The notes under the pieces are model-generated. The model did not search any database. It saw only the letters and a list, made by a program, of their open reading frames with translations, and was not told the DNA's origin. A stretch of 64,000 nt of DNA from Cryomorphaceae bacterium BACL7 MAG-120322-bin74 (GTDB taxonomy: Bacteria; Bacteroidota; Bacteroidia; Flavobacteriales; Schleiferiaceae). Shown piece by piece: positions 15,982-46,165 of the stretch; position 1 is the stretch's first letter; each line of letters starts with the position of its first letter. The DNA is taken from assembly GCA_001438205.1 (NCBI GenBank), contig LICG01000005.1, forward strand, positions 1 to 64,000, read 5' to 3'. A program made the translations under genes and the position numbers.

Positions 15982-16030
15982 TTGTCTCAGGTCATTTATT
16001 GTTTAACTTTGATTAATAATCGTTAAACAA
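15982..16030 (+). promoter_or_regulatory. Sigma-operon promoter with overlapping 9-bp dyad (candidate CarH operator)
   Basis: TTG at 15982-15984, a 19-base spacer and TAACTTTG at 16004-16011 match the Bacteroidota consensus. A perfect inverted repeat TTGTTTAAC (15999-16007) / GTTAAACAA (16022-16030) with a 14-base spacer covers the -7 box and the expected transcription start. A dimer bound there would block polymerase, as expected for a CarH-type repressor. Assignment to that regulator is inference. Confidence 0.65.
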
Positions 16031-16034
16031 AATA

Positions 16035-16544
16035 ATGATGACTTCTTCGGATACCTTTGGCAACGAAATCCATCAACACTCTTCCTTTCTGCGGATATTG
16101 GCTTTGAAGTTGACACGCCATTCCGAAGATGCAGAGGATTTAATTCAGGAAACCTTCTACAAAGCCATAAAGAACCAAGATCGTTTCAAAGAGGGCACTA
16201 ACTTGAAGGGTTGGCTCTATACGATCTTGAAGAATACCTTCATAAATAATTACCGTAAAAAGCGGAATCAGAACACCTATTCTGATGATACGGAAAATCA
16301 ATTTCTCATAGGCAGCATGGCCTCAAGTCGTTCAACCGAGGCGGATAGTCCAGCGGAATTGACCCATATTATGGAGAATATAGAAACCGTAGAAAAATCG
16401 TATTTGGATGCTTTCATGATGTATTTTAATGGCTATAAATACGAGGAGATAGCCCAAGAAATGGACATCCCTTTAGGGACAGTCAAAAGCCGTATCTTCC
16501 TTGCTAGGAGGAAAATGATGGAAAAACTCAAAGATTTTCGCTAG
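16035..16544 (+). CDS. ECF-type RNA polymerase sigma factor
   Basis: A 169-residue extracytoplasmic-function sigma factor. Region 2 is evident in [19 protein letters not shown] and [18 protein letters not shown]; region 4 in [28 protein letters not shown], a complete helix-turn-helix. There is no anti-sigma gene next to it, which is unusual for an ECF factor and suggests control at the promoter by the upstream MerR regulator. In other Bacteroidota the same MerR-sigma-crtI-crtB order is common. A second in-frame ATG at 16038 is an equally possible start. Likely targets are the downstream carotenoid and repair genes. Confidence 0.92.
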
Positions 16545-16577: not shown

Positions 16578-18047
16578 ATGCATGCAGTCGTTATAGGTGC
16601 AGGCTTTTCTGGACTCAGCACTGCGGCTTACCTGGCCAAATCAGGATATAAGGTCACGGTTTTAGAAAAGCATGATGGACCAGGTGGCCGAGCCCGTCAA
16701 TGGTGCGCTGATGGTTACACCTTTGATATGGGTCCATCTTGGTATTGGATGCCCGATGTTTTTGAGACCTTTTTTAGTCATTTTGGCAAGAAACCTTCGG
16801 ACTACTATCAGCTTGAAAGACTAGACCCCTCTTACAGCATTTTCTTTGAAGAAGGACCTATGTCGATTCCAGCGAACATGGATGAAATGGAGGCTCTTTT
16901 TGATCGGGTTGAACCTGGGTCGGCCAAACGGCTTCGGGCGTTCTTACAAGACGCTGCCTACAAGTATGAAGTAGGCATCAATGACCTTGTACGTAAACCA
17001 TCGAGATCATTATTTGAATTTGCCGATGCACGGCTGCTTAAAGGGATCCTTTCGTTGGATTTATTGAGTAATATTCGCTCTTCGATCAAAAAAGTGGTTA
17101 AAAATCCGCAACTACAGCAGTTATTGGAGTTTCCGGTCCTATTTCTTGGTGCAACGCCAAGTAATACACCCGCGCTGTATTCCTTGATGAATTATGCGGA
17201 TATGGCCCTTGGTACGTGGTACCCGCAAGGGGGTATGTATGCAGTCGTGGAGGCTTTCTATGCCTTAGCAAAGGAACAGGGGGCGCAATTCGCCTTTCAA
17301 CAAGAAGTGTCTGGTTTTGCGTATAATCAAGGCCGTATAACGCATGTTTTAATGGGAGATAAGGAACTAGCCTGTGATCTTGTGGTAGCCAGTGCGGACT
17401 ATGCGCATGTAGATCAAAAGATTCTTGCTCCAGGTTATAGAAAGTATAGCGCCTCCTATTGGGAAAAACGAAAAATGGCACCCTCTTCTTTCTTGTACTA
17501 CATCGGGCTAGACAAGCCAATTCCAGGTATTGAGCATCATACTTTGTTTTTTGATGCCCCGTTTGACGCCCACGCAGATGCGATTTACACCCACCCTAGA
17601 TGGCCAGAGAAACCGCTTTTTTATCTTTCAGCCGCGTCGAAAACAGATCCTAAAGCTGCTCCGGAAGGAGGCGAGGCATTGGTAATCCTTATCCCTACCG
17701 CTCCAGGCCTAAAGGATACTGATGAAGTGTTAGAGCTTTATTTTCAATTAGTTGCGGACCGAATTCAGCAGCATGTGGGAATGGATATACGTCAGCATAT
17801 TGTCCTCAAACGCACCTACGCCTACCGCGATTTCGTGAAGGATTATCATGCGCATCAAGGCAATGCCTATGGACTAGCCAACACCTTGGATCAGACGGCC
17901 ATTTTTAAGCCCAGCATAAAAGGGAAGCTTAAAAACCTCTACTATGCTGGACAATTAACGGTGCCTGGTCCTGGCGTTCCACCTTGTATCATTAGTGGGG
18001 AAGTCGTTGCCCTCGAAATTCAAAAGGAATACCCCCTTAGCACATGA
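16578..18047 (+). CDS. crtI: Phytoene desaturase CrtI
   Basis: An FAD-dependent desaturase that introduces conjugated double bases of the chromophore into phytoene, i.e. the conjugated double bonds that give carotenoid colour. The 489 residues have the dinucleotide-binding loop GAGFSG at 7-12 followed by VTVLEKHDGPGGRARQ, and the C-terminal carotenoid-desaturase signature YYAGQLTVPGPGVPPCIISG. The number of desaturation steps, and so the final product, cannot be read from sequence. It starts 33 bases after the sigma gene and overlaps crtB by ATGA. Confidence 0.95.
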   Translation: MHAVVIGAGFSGLSTAAYLAKSGYKVTVLEKHDGPGGRARQWCADGYTFDMGPSWYWMPDVFETFFSHFGKKPSDYYQLERLDPSYSIFFEEGPMSIPANMDEMEALFDRVEPGSAKRLRAFLQDAAYKYEVGINDLVRKPSRSLFEFADARLLKGILSLDLLSNIRSSIKKVVKNPQLQQLLEFPVLFLGATPSNTPALYSLMNYADMALGTWYPQGGMYAVVEAFYALAKEQGAQFAFQQEVSGFAYNQGRITHVLMGDKELACDLVVASADYAHVDQKILAPGYRKYSASYWEKRKMAPSSFLYYIGLDKPIPGIEHHTLFFDAPFDAHADAIYTHPRWPEKPLFYLSAASKTDPKAAPEGGEALVILIPTAPGLKDTDEVLELYFQLVADRIQQHVGMDIRQHIVLKRTYAYRDFVKDYHAHQGNAYGLANTLDQTAIFKPSIKGKLKNLYYAGQLTVPGPGVPPCIISGEVVALEIQKEYPLST

Positions 18048-18880
18048 TGGAACTTTATCATCGCAGTTCGGACAGAATCAACAAGTTGATTACACGTGCG
18101 TATTCAACTTCTTTTTCTTTGGGTATTTTGGGGTTAAACAAATCTCTGCGTGACCCCGTTTATGGAATTTATGGTTTTGTTCGCATAGCAGATGAAATTG
18201 TAGACACCTTTCAAGGCCATGACAAGGCGAAATTGCTCAAGCGGTTTTGGCAAGACACGCACTTGGCCCTAGAAGAAAAAGTGAGTATCAATCCTGTGCT
18301 CCATAGTTTTCAACGTGTTGTGCATCAATATAACATTGACCCATCCTTGATTGACACCTTCCTATCGTCCATGGAAATGGATTTAGAAGATAGAACCTAT
18401 AGTCAAGCAGAATATGAGAAATATATCCTTGGCAGTGCTGAAGTAGTTGGCTTGATGTGCTTGAAAGTGTTTGTAAAAGGGGATGAGGCTCAGTATCAAG
18501 CCCTAACGCCTTCTGCTATGAAGTTAGGTTCTGCCTTTCAAAAAATCAACTTTCTGCGCGATGTGAGTGCGGATTTTCATGCGCTAGGACGCACCTACTT
18601 CCCCAATGTAGACCTCTCTCGCTTTGATGATGACGCAAAGCGTGCGATCGAAGCAGATATAGCGATTGACTTTCGCCGCGGATATGAAGGTATTCTGCGT
18701 TTACCCAAAGGAGCGCGATTTGGTGTGTACATTGCCTACATGTACTATTATGACCTGTTCAAGAAAATTATGCGGACGCCTTCTGCACGTATTTTTCAAT
18801 CTAGAATCCGCATTCATAATCAAAAAAAATATCGGCTATTTGTCAGCAGTTATGTTCGACACGCCTTGAATCTGTTGTAG
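18044..18880 (+). CDS. crtB: Phytoene synthase CrtB
   Basis: Joins two geranylgeranyl diphosphates head to head to make phytoene. The 278-residue squalene/phytoene synthase has both Asp-rich metal-binding motifs: DEIVD at 50-54 and DVSAD about 125 residues later, followed by LGRTYFP. The start overlaps crtI in an ATGA, so the two enzymes are translated together. A second in-frame ATG at 18047 is possible. idi follows one base later. Confidence 0.95.
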   Translation: MMELYHRSSDRINKLITRAYSTSFSLGILGLNKSLRDPVYGIYGFVRIADEIVDTFQGHDKAKLLKRFWQDTHLALEEKVSINPVLHSFQRVVHQYNIDPSLIDTFLSSMEMDLEDRTYSQAEYEKYILGSAEVVGLMCLKVFVKGDEAQYQALTPSAMKLGSAFQKINFLRDVSADFHALGRTYFPNVDLSRFDDDAKRAIEADIAIDFRRGYEGILRLPKGARFGVYIAYMYYYDLFKKIMRTPSARIFQSRIRIHNQKKYRLFVSSYVRHALNLL

Positions 18881-18881
18881 C

Positions 18882-19412
18882 ATGAAAGAATATGTTATCC
18901 TCGTAGATCCGGAAGATCAACCGGTGGGACGGATGGAGAAAATGGAAGCGCACGAAAAGGGTGAGCTGCATAGAGCATTTTCAGTTTTCTTATTTAATGA
19001 ACAAGGAGAAACGCTTCTCCAGCAACGGGCCAGCGGTAAATACCATAGCCCGTTGTTGTGGACGAATACATGCTGTAGCCATCCGAGAGTAGGGGAAACC
19101 ATCCTGGAGGCGGCAAAGAGAAGAGTCCAGGAAGAATTGGGTATTCATCCAGCCCACATTGAAGATCTGCGTCCCGCCTTTCACTTTATATATCGTGCAG
19201 CCTTTGAGAATGGCTTAATTGAACACGAACTTGATCACGTGCTCATGGGCACCTTTCAGGGTACATGCGCGCTAAATAGGGATGAGGTCGCCGATGTGGC
19301 ATGGATCACCCTGCCTAATCTCTTCAAGGATATCGCATTAAACCCCGCCCGTTATACGGCATGGTTTAAAATCATTTTAGTAGAATATGCCAAACACCTA
19401 CCCACACGATGA
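18882..19412 (+). CDS. idi: Isopentenyl-diphosphate delta-isomerase, type 1
   Basis: Interconverts isopentenyl and dimethylallyl diphosphate, supplying precursors for carotenoid synthesis. The 176-residue Nudix-fold protein carries WTNTCCSHPR, with the catalytic Cys at position 65, and a downstream EHELDH segment with the acidic catalytic residue. The Nudix-like helix is seen in EAAKRRVQEELG. It lies one base after crtB and overlaps the PTPS gene as ATGA, placing it firmly in the carotenoid operon. Confidence 0.95.
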   Translation: MKEYVILVDPEDQPVGRMEKMEAHEKGELHRAFSVFLFNEQGETLLQQRASGKYHSPLLWTNTCCSHPRVGETILEAAKRRVQEELGIHPAHIEDLRPAFHFIYRAAFENGLIEHELDHVLMGTFQGTCALNRDEVADVAWITLPNLFKDIALNPARYTAWFKIILVEYAKHLPTR

Positions 19413-19816
19413 AAGCGACGATAAGCAGGCATGCGCATTTTAATGCAGCCCATCGTTTACATGTTTCTCATTGGACAGAGGAAAGGAATGCTTCTTTTTT
19501 TGGTGCCTGTAACAACCCTCTTTTTCATGGCCACAATTATGAATTGATTGTTGGGATTACGGGAGAGATTGATCCGGAAACAGGGTACGTGTATGACATG
19601 AAGCAGTTGGCAGATCTTATAAAAGCAGAGGTAGAGGGTAGGCTCGATCACAAAAACTTAAACCTTGAAGTAGAGGAGTTTGCCCAGTTAAATCCGACCG
19701 CAGAGAATATTGCGGCCGTCATTTATAGCTGGCTGAGGCCGCATATTGAGGCTGAATACGAAATTAAAGTTACACTTTATGAAACACCTCGTAACTACGT
19801 TGAATACAATGGTTAA
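19409..19816 (+). CDS. 6-pyruvoyl-tetrahydropterin synthase, eukaryotic-type motif (COG0720)
   Basis: A 135-residue T-fold enzyme converting dihydroneopterin triphosphate. Zinc ligands are the His in HFNAAH (H15) and the HGH at 40-42. The catalytic Cys lies in CNNPLFHGHNY, a C-x5-HGH spacing as in animal PTPS, not the C-x3-HGH of E. coli QueD. LDHKNL and LYETPRNYVEY near the end also resemble the animal enzyme. This favours tetrahydropterin rather than queuosine synthesis, but COG0720 members can be promiscuous. It overlaps idi by 4 bases and folE by 8, so both pterin enzymes are translated as a unit. Confidence 0.88.
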   Translation: MKATISRHAHFNAAHRLHVSHWTEERNASFFGACNNPLFHGHNYELIVGITGEIDPETGYVYDMKQLADLIKAEVEGRLDHKNLNLEVEEFAQLNPTAENIAAVIYSWLRPHIEAEYEIKVTLYETPRNYVEYNG

Positions 19817-20462
19817 CACTTCGTTTAATGCTAAAGCAGCTTCAAATTTTACTGAGGTTCCCACCACCCCCATGCATGCGCATGCGTATCTCTTAACTGA
19901 TGGGGAAAAGGTGGAGCTTATCGCCGAAAAGTTTGCGGAAATAATGCAAATCATGGGACTTGATTTGACAGATAACTCCTTGAAAGGCACCCCCATGCGC
20001 GTCGCCAAAATGTACGTACATGAAACATTTCAAGGATTGAATCCCTTGAATAAGCCGGAGATAACGCTTTTCGAAAACGATTACCAGTACGCCCAAATGC
20101 TCATTGAACGGAACATCACCGTGCACAGCACATGCGAGCATCATTTTGTTCCCATCCTTGGCCATTGTCACCTTGCCTACTTTTCAACAGGGAAGGTGGT
20201 CGGTCTTTCCAAGTTGAATAGAATCGTTAAGTATTATGCAAAACGACCCCAAGTGCAGGAGCGTCTCACCGAGCAAATTGCTGCGGAATTACGCAGGAGC
20301 TTAGACACGGAGGATGTCGCTGTCTATATGGATGCTGAACACCTTTGTGTCAAGACTCGGGGAGTGGAAGATTGCGCTTCTTCTACAGTAACAAGTGCTT
20401 ATTCCGGAAAATTCAATGATCCGGCAGTTCGAAGCGAGTTTCTAGGGTCAATTCGAGCCTAG
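19809..20462 (+). CDS. folE: GTP cyclohydrolase I FolE
   Basis: Opens GTP to dihydroneopterin triphosphate, the substrate of the preceding PTPS and also of folate synthesis. With the start at 19809 (MVNTSFNAKAA) it has 217 residues, the normal length. Zinc ligands are C109 and H112 in CEHHFVP and C180 in AEHLCVKTRGVED. VVGLSKLNRIV is the conserved core. Earlier in-frame ATGs at 19746 and 19779 lie deep within the PTPS gene and give a non-conserved extension. Photolyase begins 2 bases after its stop. Confidence 0.94.
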   Translation: MVNTSFNAKAASNFTEVPTTPMHAHAYLLTDGEKVELIAEKFAEIMQIMGLDLTDNSLKGTPMRVAKMYVHETFQGLNPLNKPEITLFENDYQYAQMLIERNITVHSTCEHHFVPILGHCHLAYFSTGKVVGLSKLNRIVKYYAKRPQVQERLTEQIAAELRRSLDTEDVAVYMDAEHLCVKTRGVEDCASSTVTSAYSGKFNDPAVRSEFLGSIRA

Positions 20463-20464
20463 CG

Positions 20465-21778
20465 ATGGTGCTCCATTGGTTCCGTCGTGATCTGCGTTTA
20501 GAGGACAATCATGCCTTGTCTTCAGCTTGTCAATATTCGAAAGAAAGGGGGAGTCATGTGCAATGTATTTTTATTTTTGATTCAAACATTCTCTCCGAAC
20601 TGGAAAACCCACGGGATCGTCGTGTGGCTTTCATACATGCAGAACTGCAAAGGATTCAATTCGAATTAGCACAACAAGGCGCCCAATTATGGGTTGTGTA
20701 TGGAGATCCTATTGTGTGGCATACGCGCTGGTCAGAAGATCCTTCTGTAGAGGCATTGTATGCAAACCGAGATTATGAGCCCTATGCCGGACTTCGCGAT
20801 ACATCGGTGGCACAGCTATATGCGGAAAAAGGCAAGCCCTGCAAATGGGTTAAAGACCATGTCTTGATGGAACCGCATGAGGTATTAAAAGAGGACAGGA
20901 CCCCCTATTTGGTTTTTACCCCCTACGCGCGAAAGTGGAAAAGTCTATTGCCGCCAGAAGGTTTGGCAGCCTTTCCTGACGCAAAGGGTCCATGGAGCCC
21001 TCCGTCCCCTGCGTATACTTTTCCATCCTTAGAAGATCTGGGCTTTCAGGCCTGTAGTCTAGCCATCCCCTCACGTGAAATCCCCATGGATGTACTTGCG
21101 CACTACAAAGAGACCCGAGACTTTCCAGGGGAAGCAGGAACGAGCCGCTTAAGTGTGCATTTGCGCTTTGGCACACGCTCCATTCGATCTCTGGCCAGAA
21201 GTGCTTATCCAACCCATGAAACTTACGTAAATGAGTTGATATGGCGGGACTTCTACCAAATGATACTAAAGCATTTCCCTCAATGTCCGGACAAAGCAAT
21301 CAAACCGGCCTATGACCATATACGATGGGAAAACAATACGGAACATTTTGCGTCATGGTGCCAAGGTGAAACGGGGTATCCTCTTGTCGATGCAGGCATG
21401 CGCGAACTAAATGAAACAGGCTTCATGCACAATAGGGTTCGGATGGTAGTGGCCAGTTTTTTAACAAAGCACCTTCTACTTGACTGGCGCCTAGGTGCCG
21501 CTTACTTTGCGGCTAAATTGCTCGACTTTGACCTGGCTTCAAATGTAGGGGGTTGGCAGTGGGCTAGTGGAAGTGGATGCGATGCTGCACCGTACTTCCG
21601 CATCTTTAACCCCTCAAGTCAAATGGAGCGCTTTGACAAAGCGGCAGTCTATGTCAAAAAGTGGGTGCCTGAATATGGTACATCGACTTATCCTGTGCCC
21701 ATTGTGGACCATAAAATGGCGCGCGAACGTGCGCTGTTCCGTTATAAAGAAGGATTGTCTTTCGCCTCTTTGATGTAG
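20465..21778 (+). CDS. phr: Deoxyribodipyrimidine photo-lyase (class I photolyase/cryptochrome family)
   Basis: Uses blue light to repair cyclobutane pyrimidine dimers. The 437 residues begin with the antenna-binding domain (VLHWFRRDLRLEDNHAL). The FAD domain follows with GTSRLSVHLRFG, NELIWRDFYQ and NVGGWQWASGSGCDAAPYFRIFNP. The Asn four residues before the first Trp of GGWQW, which faces flavin N5 in photolyases, is present, favouring repair over signalling. The gene lies two bases after folE at the end of the light cluster. Its last 37 bases overlap the end of the convergent gene at 21742. Confidence 0.93.
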   Translation: MVLHWFRRDLRLEDNHALSSACQYSKERGSHVQCIFIFDSNILSELENPRDRRVAFIHAELQRIQFELAQQGAQLWVVYGDPIVWHTRWSEDPSVEALYANRDYEPYAGLRDTSVAQLYAEKGKPCKWVKDHVLMEPHEVLKEDRTPYLVFTPYARKWKSLLPPEGLAAFPDAKGPWSPPSPAYTFPSLEDLGFQACSLAIPSREIPMDVLAHYKETRDFPGEAGTSRLSVHLRFGTRSIRSLARSAYPTHETYVNELIWRDFYQMILKHFPQCPDKAIKPAYDHIRWENNTEHFASWCQGETGYPLVDAGMRELNETGFMHNRVRMVVASFLTKHLLLDWRLGAAYFAAKLLDFDLASNVGGWQWASGSGCDAAPYFRIFNPSSQMERFDKAAVYVKKWVPEYGTSTYPVPIVDHKMARERALFRYKEGLSFASLM

Positions 21779-46127: not shown

Positions 46128-46165
46128 AAATAAAAAACGGGGGCAAATGCCCCCGTTTTTTATTT
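46128..46165. terminator. Bidirectional terminator between fabG and the TlpA-like gene
   Basis: A perfect 17-bp inverted repeat with a 4-base loop: AAATAAAAAACGGGGGC / GCCCCCGTTTTTTATTT. It has a T run on both strands and serves two convergent genes. Confidence 0.95.

Follow-up and report, generated by a model that had tools for sequence, protein, structure and literature searches.

The locus studied here raises the question of which regulator recognises a perfect inverted repeat that lies between a gene for a CarH-like, B12-binding protein and an ECF sigma factor gene, at the head of a run of genes reaching from crtI to a photolyase gene. The window, i.e., the whole stretch of DNA analysed, comprises 64,000 nucleotides from Cryomorphaceae bacterium BACL7 MAG-120322-bin74, whose close relatives are Flavobacteriales of the Schleiferiaceae/Cryomorphaceae type. 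The features of the locus are collected in Table 1. Our answer is that a vitamin B12-dependent, light-sensing repressor (CarH) very probably docks at the repeat.

Table 1. Genes, promoter boxes and dyads of the locus, numbered from the first nucleotide of the window.
Feature	Position	Strand	Remarks
carH-like gene (MerR HTH + B12-binding domain), 301 aa	15034..15939	+	Pfam MerR_1 + B12-binding_2
Degenerate upstream dyad A, TTGTTGAA-N15-CGAAACAA	15947..15977	.	centre about 52.5 bp from dyad B
-33 box TTG	15982..15984	+	19 nt from the -7 box
Dyad B, putative main operator, TTGTTTAAC-N14-GTTAAACAA, i.e., TTGTTTAA-N16-TTAAACAA	15999..16030	.	
-7 box TAACTTTG, fits the Bacteroidota sigma-A consensus TAnnTTTG	16004..16011	+	overlapped by the left half-site
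ECF sigma factor gene, 169 aa	16035..16544	+	
crtI-family phytoene desaturase	16578..18047	+	NCBIfam CrtID 713 bits, above cut-off
crtB-like, phytoene/squalene synthase family	18044..18880	+	PF00494
idi, isopentenyl-diphosphate isomerase	18882..19412	+	above cut-off
6-pyruvoyl-tetrahydropterin synthase (PTPS) family	19409..19816	+	PF01242
folE, GTP cyclohydrolase I, first codon uncertain	19800..20462	+	above cut-off
phr, photolyase/cryptochrome family	20465..21778	+	PF03441 + PF00875

Dyad B is a perfect 9-bp repeat that did not arise in any of 100 shuffles. It covers part of a promoter of the layout TTG-N19-TAnnTTTG, whose -7 element agrees with the consensus described for Bacteroidota sigma-A (PMC9723704), and the ECF start codon follows at 16035. 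The sequence-only reading had claimed the perfect repeat, its overlap with the -7 box and a good promoter spacing, and all of these were confirmed; the TTG at which that reading had set its first position (15982) is exactly 19 nt from TAACTTTG. It had also noticed no other such dyad at a promoter in the window. This holds for the full pattern, which occurs once in the 1.74-Mb genome (1,743,356 bp searched, with up to 3 mismatches allowed), but the degenerate dyad A had been missed, and at the homologous place most relatives have a clear dyad. The 8-mer form of the dyad likewise has 1 exact match in the genome, its other matches (2-3 mismatches) being no commoner than those of a reversed control. 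A perfect 9-bp dyad alone is unexceptional in 64 kb, since with loops of 3-25 nt we obtained 31 raw matches at roughly a dozen sites in the window, as compared with 1-9 in local shuffles. Thus, the case for dyad B rests on its genome-wide uniqueness, its position at the promoter and its conservation. Among the other 9-bp dyad sites is a strong long inverted repeat, AAATAAAAAACGGGGGC..., at 46128-46165, which resembles a terminator hairpin. Single half-sites occur in the window at chance level; a lone TTGTTTAAC without a partner within crtB (18133-18141, minus strand) is probably due to chance.

The properties of the neighbouring regulator were assessed from its sequence and predicted fold. The protein contains the Pfam domains MerR_1 (7e-15) and B12-binding_2 (6.9e-9), while its second B12 domain received no Pfam call. 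It aligns with Thermus CarH over residues 4-230 (phmmer), its best solved relatives are the Thermus CarH structures 5c8d and 3whp (E = 2e-20), and the AF2 model (pLDDT 87) has CarH 5c8d and 5c8e as its top PDB matches. As it remains far under the NCBIfam TransRegCarH equivalog cut-off (86 vs 400 bits), we call it CarH-like, a distant relative and not an equivalog. Two B12-binding signatures were invariant in 16 aligned relatives, namely the WX9EH motif (W140, E150, H151) of the four-helix B12-binding bundle and the lower-ligand H190, within ELHELG (D/ExHxxG type), of the Rossmann-like B12 domain; H132 of Thermus CarH corresponds to Q141 in this protein. Since the genome also encodes an AdoCbl-forming adenosyltransferase (PF01923), the use of AdoCbl is plausible.

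Absence of the dyad from relatives that keep the gene cluster would have spoken against the operator proposal; the dyad proved to be kept in such relatives far beyond the genus. Its general form, TTGTTTAA-N16/17-TTAAACAA, was found with at most 2 mismatches in 77 of the 81 distinct carH-ECF intergenic regions, from Flavobacteriales and Cytophagales (shuffles, about 4%), although these loci, like all those counted for conservation, are phylogenetically related and hence non-independent. The spacer in these regions was 16 (58 cases) or 17 (16). All 19 carH-crtI intergenic regions of at least 50 bp contained the dyad at the same threshold, and in tightly packed carH-crtI operons it moves upstream of carH, where its distance to the start is mostly 2-60 bp. 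Of 33 cases in which neither an ECF gene nor crtI comes after carH, 2 had a dyad downstream, one of which (L214) is on a truncated contig and has a dyad resembling the ECF type. Several CarH loci (e.g., L184, L186, L205, L230, L244) showed no recognisable dyad. As to the promoter, 64 of 96 loci have a TAnnTTTG that overlaps the dyad, with 17.8 expected when the spacer is shuffled, and the offsets of this box on the dyad are mostly -5, 5, 15 and 16, i.e., about 10 bp apart.

Some loci of this collection are unusual. Upstream of carH in L154-L161 and others (all f3, the Flavobacteriaceae-like family), the right half-site is ATGAACAA and places an ATG near the carH start inside the operator; the start codon of carH in those carH-crtI operons may be part of the half-site, with autoregulation as the result. 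Divergent or second carH-like genes are present in G379 and G390 (L140, L141) and in G155 (L142), G390 and G155 having two, and the carH-like gene of L141 has its own upstream dyad. Two MAGs with alphaproteobacterial titles (Thalassobius and Thalassovita; L193, L201) contain a Bacteroidota-type CarH and are likely to include mis-binned contigs.

As the dyad is placed directly 5' of the ECF gene here and in most Cytophagales and f1 loci, it could belong to the ECF factor itself, as an element for autoregulation or of the -35/-10 kind. However, the f3 loci show the order carH-dyad-crtI with no ECF gene, so the dyad tracks CarH and not ECF; moreover, it is found in those genomes at the rhodopsin and folE promoters. 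Inverted repeats are not a trait of sigma promoter elements either, and TAnnTTTG is the mark of a sigma-A promoter. ECF autoregulation was rejected on this locus comparison, and we regard it as highly improbable. At the level of whole genomes, 71 CarH-positive f3 genomes have a mean of 2.2 exact dyads and 61 of them have one, whereas the 4 CarH-negative f3 genomes have none (Fisher p = 8e-4, with the per-genome counts transcribed by hand from tables). The 75 f6 genomes, all CarH-negative, contain 3 dyads in total. Ten CarH-positive f3 genomes are devoid of an exact dyad, and most of those examined have mismatched or variant copies near carH that account for this.

The half-site itself also points to CarH. 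In 250 half-sites the information peaks at TnnACA (T 1.96, A 1.89, C 1.84 and A 1.80 bits), the same core as that of the CarH repeat in the literature, written there as nnnnTnnACAn (PMC9304148) or nAnnTnnACAn (PMC8156234). Two variant dyads were found, TTGTATAA..TTATACAA in families f7, f8, f11 and f15 and TTGTCTAA..TTAGACAA in G138 and G268, both altered symmetrically at exactly one free 'nn' position of TnnACA. The recognition helix of CarH changes with them: [ST]GIKAHT is paired with TTGTTTAA dyads, TGI[TSN]K[FLI][VLN]L with TTGTATAA dyads and TGINAHTLRKWESRY with TTGTCTAA dyads. On the genome scale, the TTGTATAA dyad is present in all 10 f8 genomes and in 5 of 12 from f7, whereas none of 12 f3 and 10 f6 genomes has it. 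This covariation involves two clades, each variant having arisen once on the CarH tree, and therefore amounts to two events, not many.

It could still be argued that CarH is a mere neighbour and that another dimeric transcription factor, with a regulon overlapping the light genes, binds the dyad, a view favoured by a layout unlike that of the characterised B12-CarH operators (PMC8156234, PMC9304148). Such a factor would have to accompany a dyad that stays with carH in three different gene orders, is seldom or never found in CarH-negative genomes and has the CarH core, changing together with the CarH recognition helix, and no other regulator gene was seen common to these loci; we find it very unlikely. 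Judged from sequence, the CarH-like B12 photoreceptor-repressor encoded next to the dyad is highly likely to have it as its operator, and the CarH reading proposed at the outset is thus supported by the company the dyad keeps, by its core and by its covariation with the protein.

The dyad might also work at the RNA level, forming a hairpin or terminator in the carH transcript, given a folding energy of -6.3 kcal/mol (z = -3.5) for the 32-nt RNA. A U-tract of the usual kind is absent, however, and transcription is expected to start within the dyad, which leaves the left arm outside the ECF transcript. The TnnACA core is conserved beyond the need for pairing and covaries with a protein helix, and dyads occur at divergent promoters too, e.g., between rhodopsin and blh genes. 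On comparison of the loci this explanation was rejected, and we consider it scarcely credible.

We then return to the CarH operator and its geometry. The two TnnACA half-sites are inverted and 24-25 bp apart, with a core-to-core gap of 18. The B12-CarH operators that have been characterised consist of direct repeats of 11 bp in tandem, an arrangement described as departing from the palindromes usual in the MerR family (PMC8156234). This textbook layout was searched for and rejected as absent: a full TnnACA at +11 or -11 accompanied 3 and 4 of 234 half-sites, respectively, which is the background level, while an inverted TGTnnA at -24 was present in 227 of 234, by construction, as the sites had been selected as dyads. 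Most carH-ECF intergenic regions of the same genus and family have, in addition to the dyad, a second one upstream, with left ends mostly 53-56 bp apart, and the -33 TTG falls in the gap between the two. The centre distances of paired dyads cluster at 44-46, 53-56 and 63-65 bp, about one helical turn apart, and these roughly helical steps suggest contact between the proteins bound to each dyad.

A CarH operator beside crt genes is in itself of a known kind. With the class I LitR/CarH operators of Thermus, Bacillus megaterium and Myxococcales the dyads share the TnnACA core, the overlap with the promoter, a regulator beside crt genes and, often, several repeats, and dark repression with AdoCbl would be expected in both (PMC9304148, PMC8156234). 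The class I sites, however, are direct repeats of 11 bp in tandem on one strand, in 3-5 copies of which some are imperfect, whereas the Bacteroidota dyads are inverted, stand singly or in phased pairs and lie on TTG/TAnnTTTG promoters. The nearest case without direct repeats is the class II LitR (PplR1, PmlR2) operator of Pseudomonas, T(G/A)TACA-N12-TGTA(C/T)A, which likewise consists of two half-sites and whose regulon, with folE, phrB, cryB and other light genes, is similar to the genes marked by the dyad here (PMC9758184). Its half-sites are oppositely oriented by the ACA/TGT core and its spacing is 12, as against a gap of 18 here; moreover, class II LitR has no full B12 domain and works with a LOV partner in P. 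mendocina, whereas the B12 ligands are kept in the proteins studied here. The open literature searched yielded no CarH operator from Bacteroidota, no account of an inverted, phased architecture spanning two orders of this phylum and no link between CarH and proteorhodopsin.

Classical MerR-family operators are palindromes, e.g., TGTnA-N7-TnACA for TnrA/GlnR. These and the Bacteroidota dyad have in common inverted half-sites and, presumably, binding by a dimer, but the gap of 18 between the cores is about one helical turn longer here. Nothing points to the underwinding mechanism of MerR, as the dyad covers the -7 box.

The mechanism we propose is of repression in the dark. AdoCbl-bound CarH would bind the dyad over the -7 box and block sigma-A RNA polymerase at the ECF promoter, presumably as one dimer per dyad and as two dimers or one tetramer at the double operator. 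Light would break the Co-C bond and CarH would leave the operator, after which the ECF sigma factor and crtI-crtB-idi-PTPS-folE-phr could be expressed. The operator, its overlap with the promoter, its association with CarH and the identity of the half-sites are the steps of this scheme that are read from sequence. CarH might also bind the dyad in another capacity, as an activator, or with redox or B12 status in place of light as its signal. Loss or alteration of B12 sensing is known from LitR proteins of classes II-V (PMC9758184), and Q141 stands in place of Thermus H132; on the other hand, neither WX9EH nor the lower-ligand His varies, a dyad over the -7 box has the geometry of repression, and the targets are light-protection and light-use genes. 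We therefore think such a role unlikely.

The genes marked by the dyad were surveyed in f3, where exact dyads are nearly all intergenic. Adjacent genes include crtI, folE, photolyase (phr), fasciclins, bacteriorhodopsin-like genes, PAS histidine kinases and flavin reductase, as well as DUF1731 and DUF2867 NAD-binding proteins. The commonest neighbours are fasciclin-domain proteins (13 cases: L036-L039, L042, L043, L056, L062, L064, L087, L090, L096, L099), whose role in a light response is not obvious. The bacteriorhodopsin-like genes near dyads are divergent from the beta-carotene 15,15'-dioxygenase gene (blh), and the stretch between the divergent genes contains two dyads in G331 (L061). When rhodopsin genes were picked without regard to dyads, all 16 f3 promoters examined had the dyad at up to 2 mismatches (7 exact), and the TTGTATAA-type dyad was found at 5 of 6 rhodopsin promoters in f8 and at 1 of 1 in f7, as compared with 1.2% of shuffles. 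Proteorhodopsin promoters with a dyad in Flavobacteriaceae-like genomes are those of L061, L076, L086, L282 and L284-L298. The regulation of flavobacterial (Dokdonia) proteorhodopsin has been described as needing further work (PMC3587595). In the family of the window this dyad is not general: most rhodopsin promoters of the same genus are devoid of it, and a clear one, with 1 mismatch, is seen in a single relative (G012, L304). The rhodopsin gene of the window's genome (G000:C16:60-722) lies at a contig end, with its promoter outside the assembly.

The single site in the window's genome, together with the lack of a general rhodopsin dyad in its family, suggests two wirings. In Flavobacteriaceae-like genomes without the ECF gene, CarH appears, from the placement of the dyads, to bind each target gene directly. 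In the window's genome it seems to act only through the single ECF promoter, and the ECF factor would possibly relay the light signal, in this genus and perhaps in Cytophagales. As a whole, we regard it as moderately likely that CarH of Bacteroidota works with an operator that is inverted and helically phased, in place of direct repeats, that in Flavobacteriaceae it directly places proteorhodopsin, the retinal-forming enzyme, and carotenoid, folate and photolyase genes under light control, and that in Schleiferiaceae and Cytophagales it controls a single ECF factor relaying the signal.

The inverted layout would give the CarH fold a second geometry of DNA binding, which may be useful for optogenetic tools in Bacteroidota. 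A precise conserved operator at rhodopsin, blh, crt, folE and photolyase promoters, along with a named B12-dependent repressor, makes the control of proteorhodopsin directly testable. If the proposal is true, the use of light by common marine bacteria would be tied to vitamin B12.
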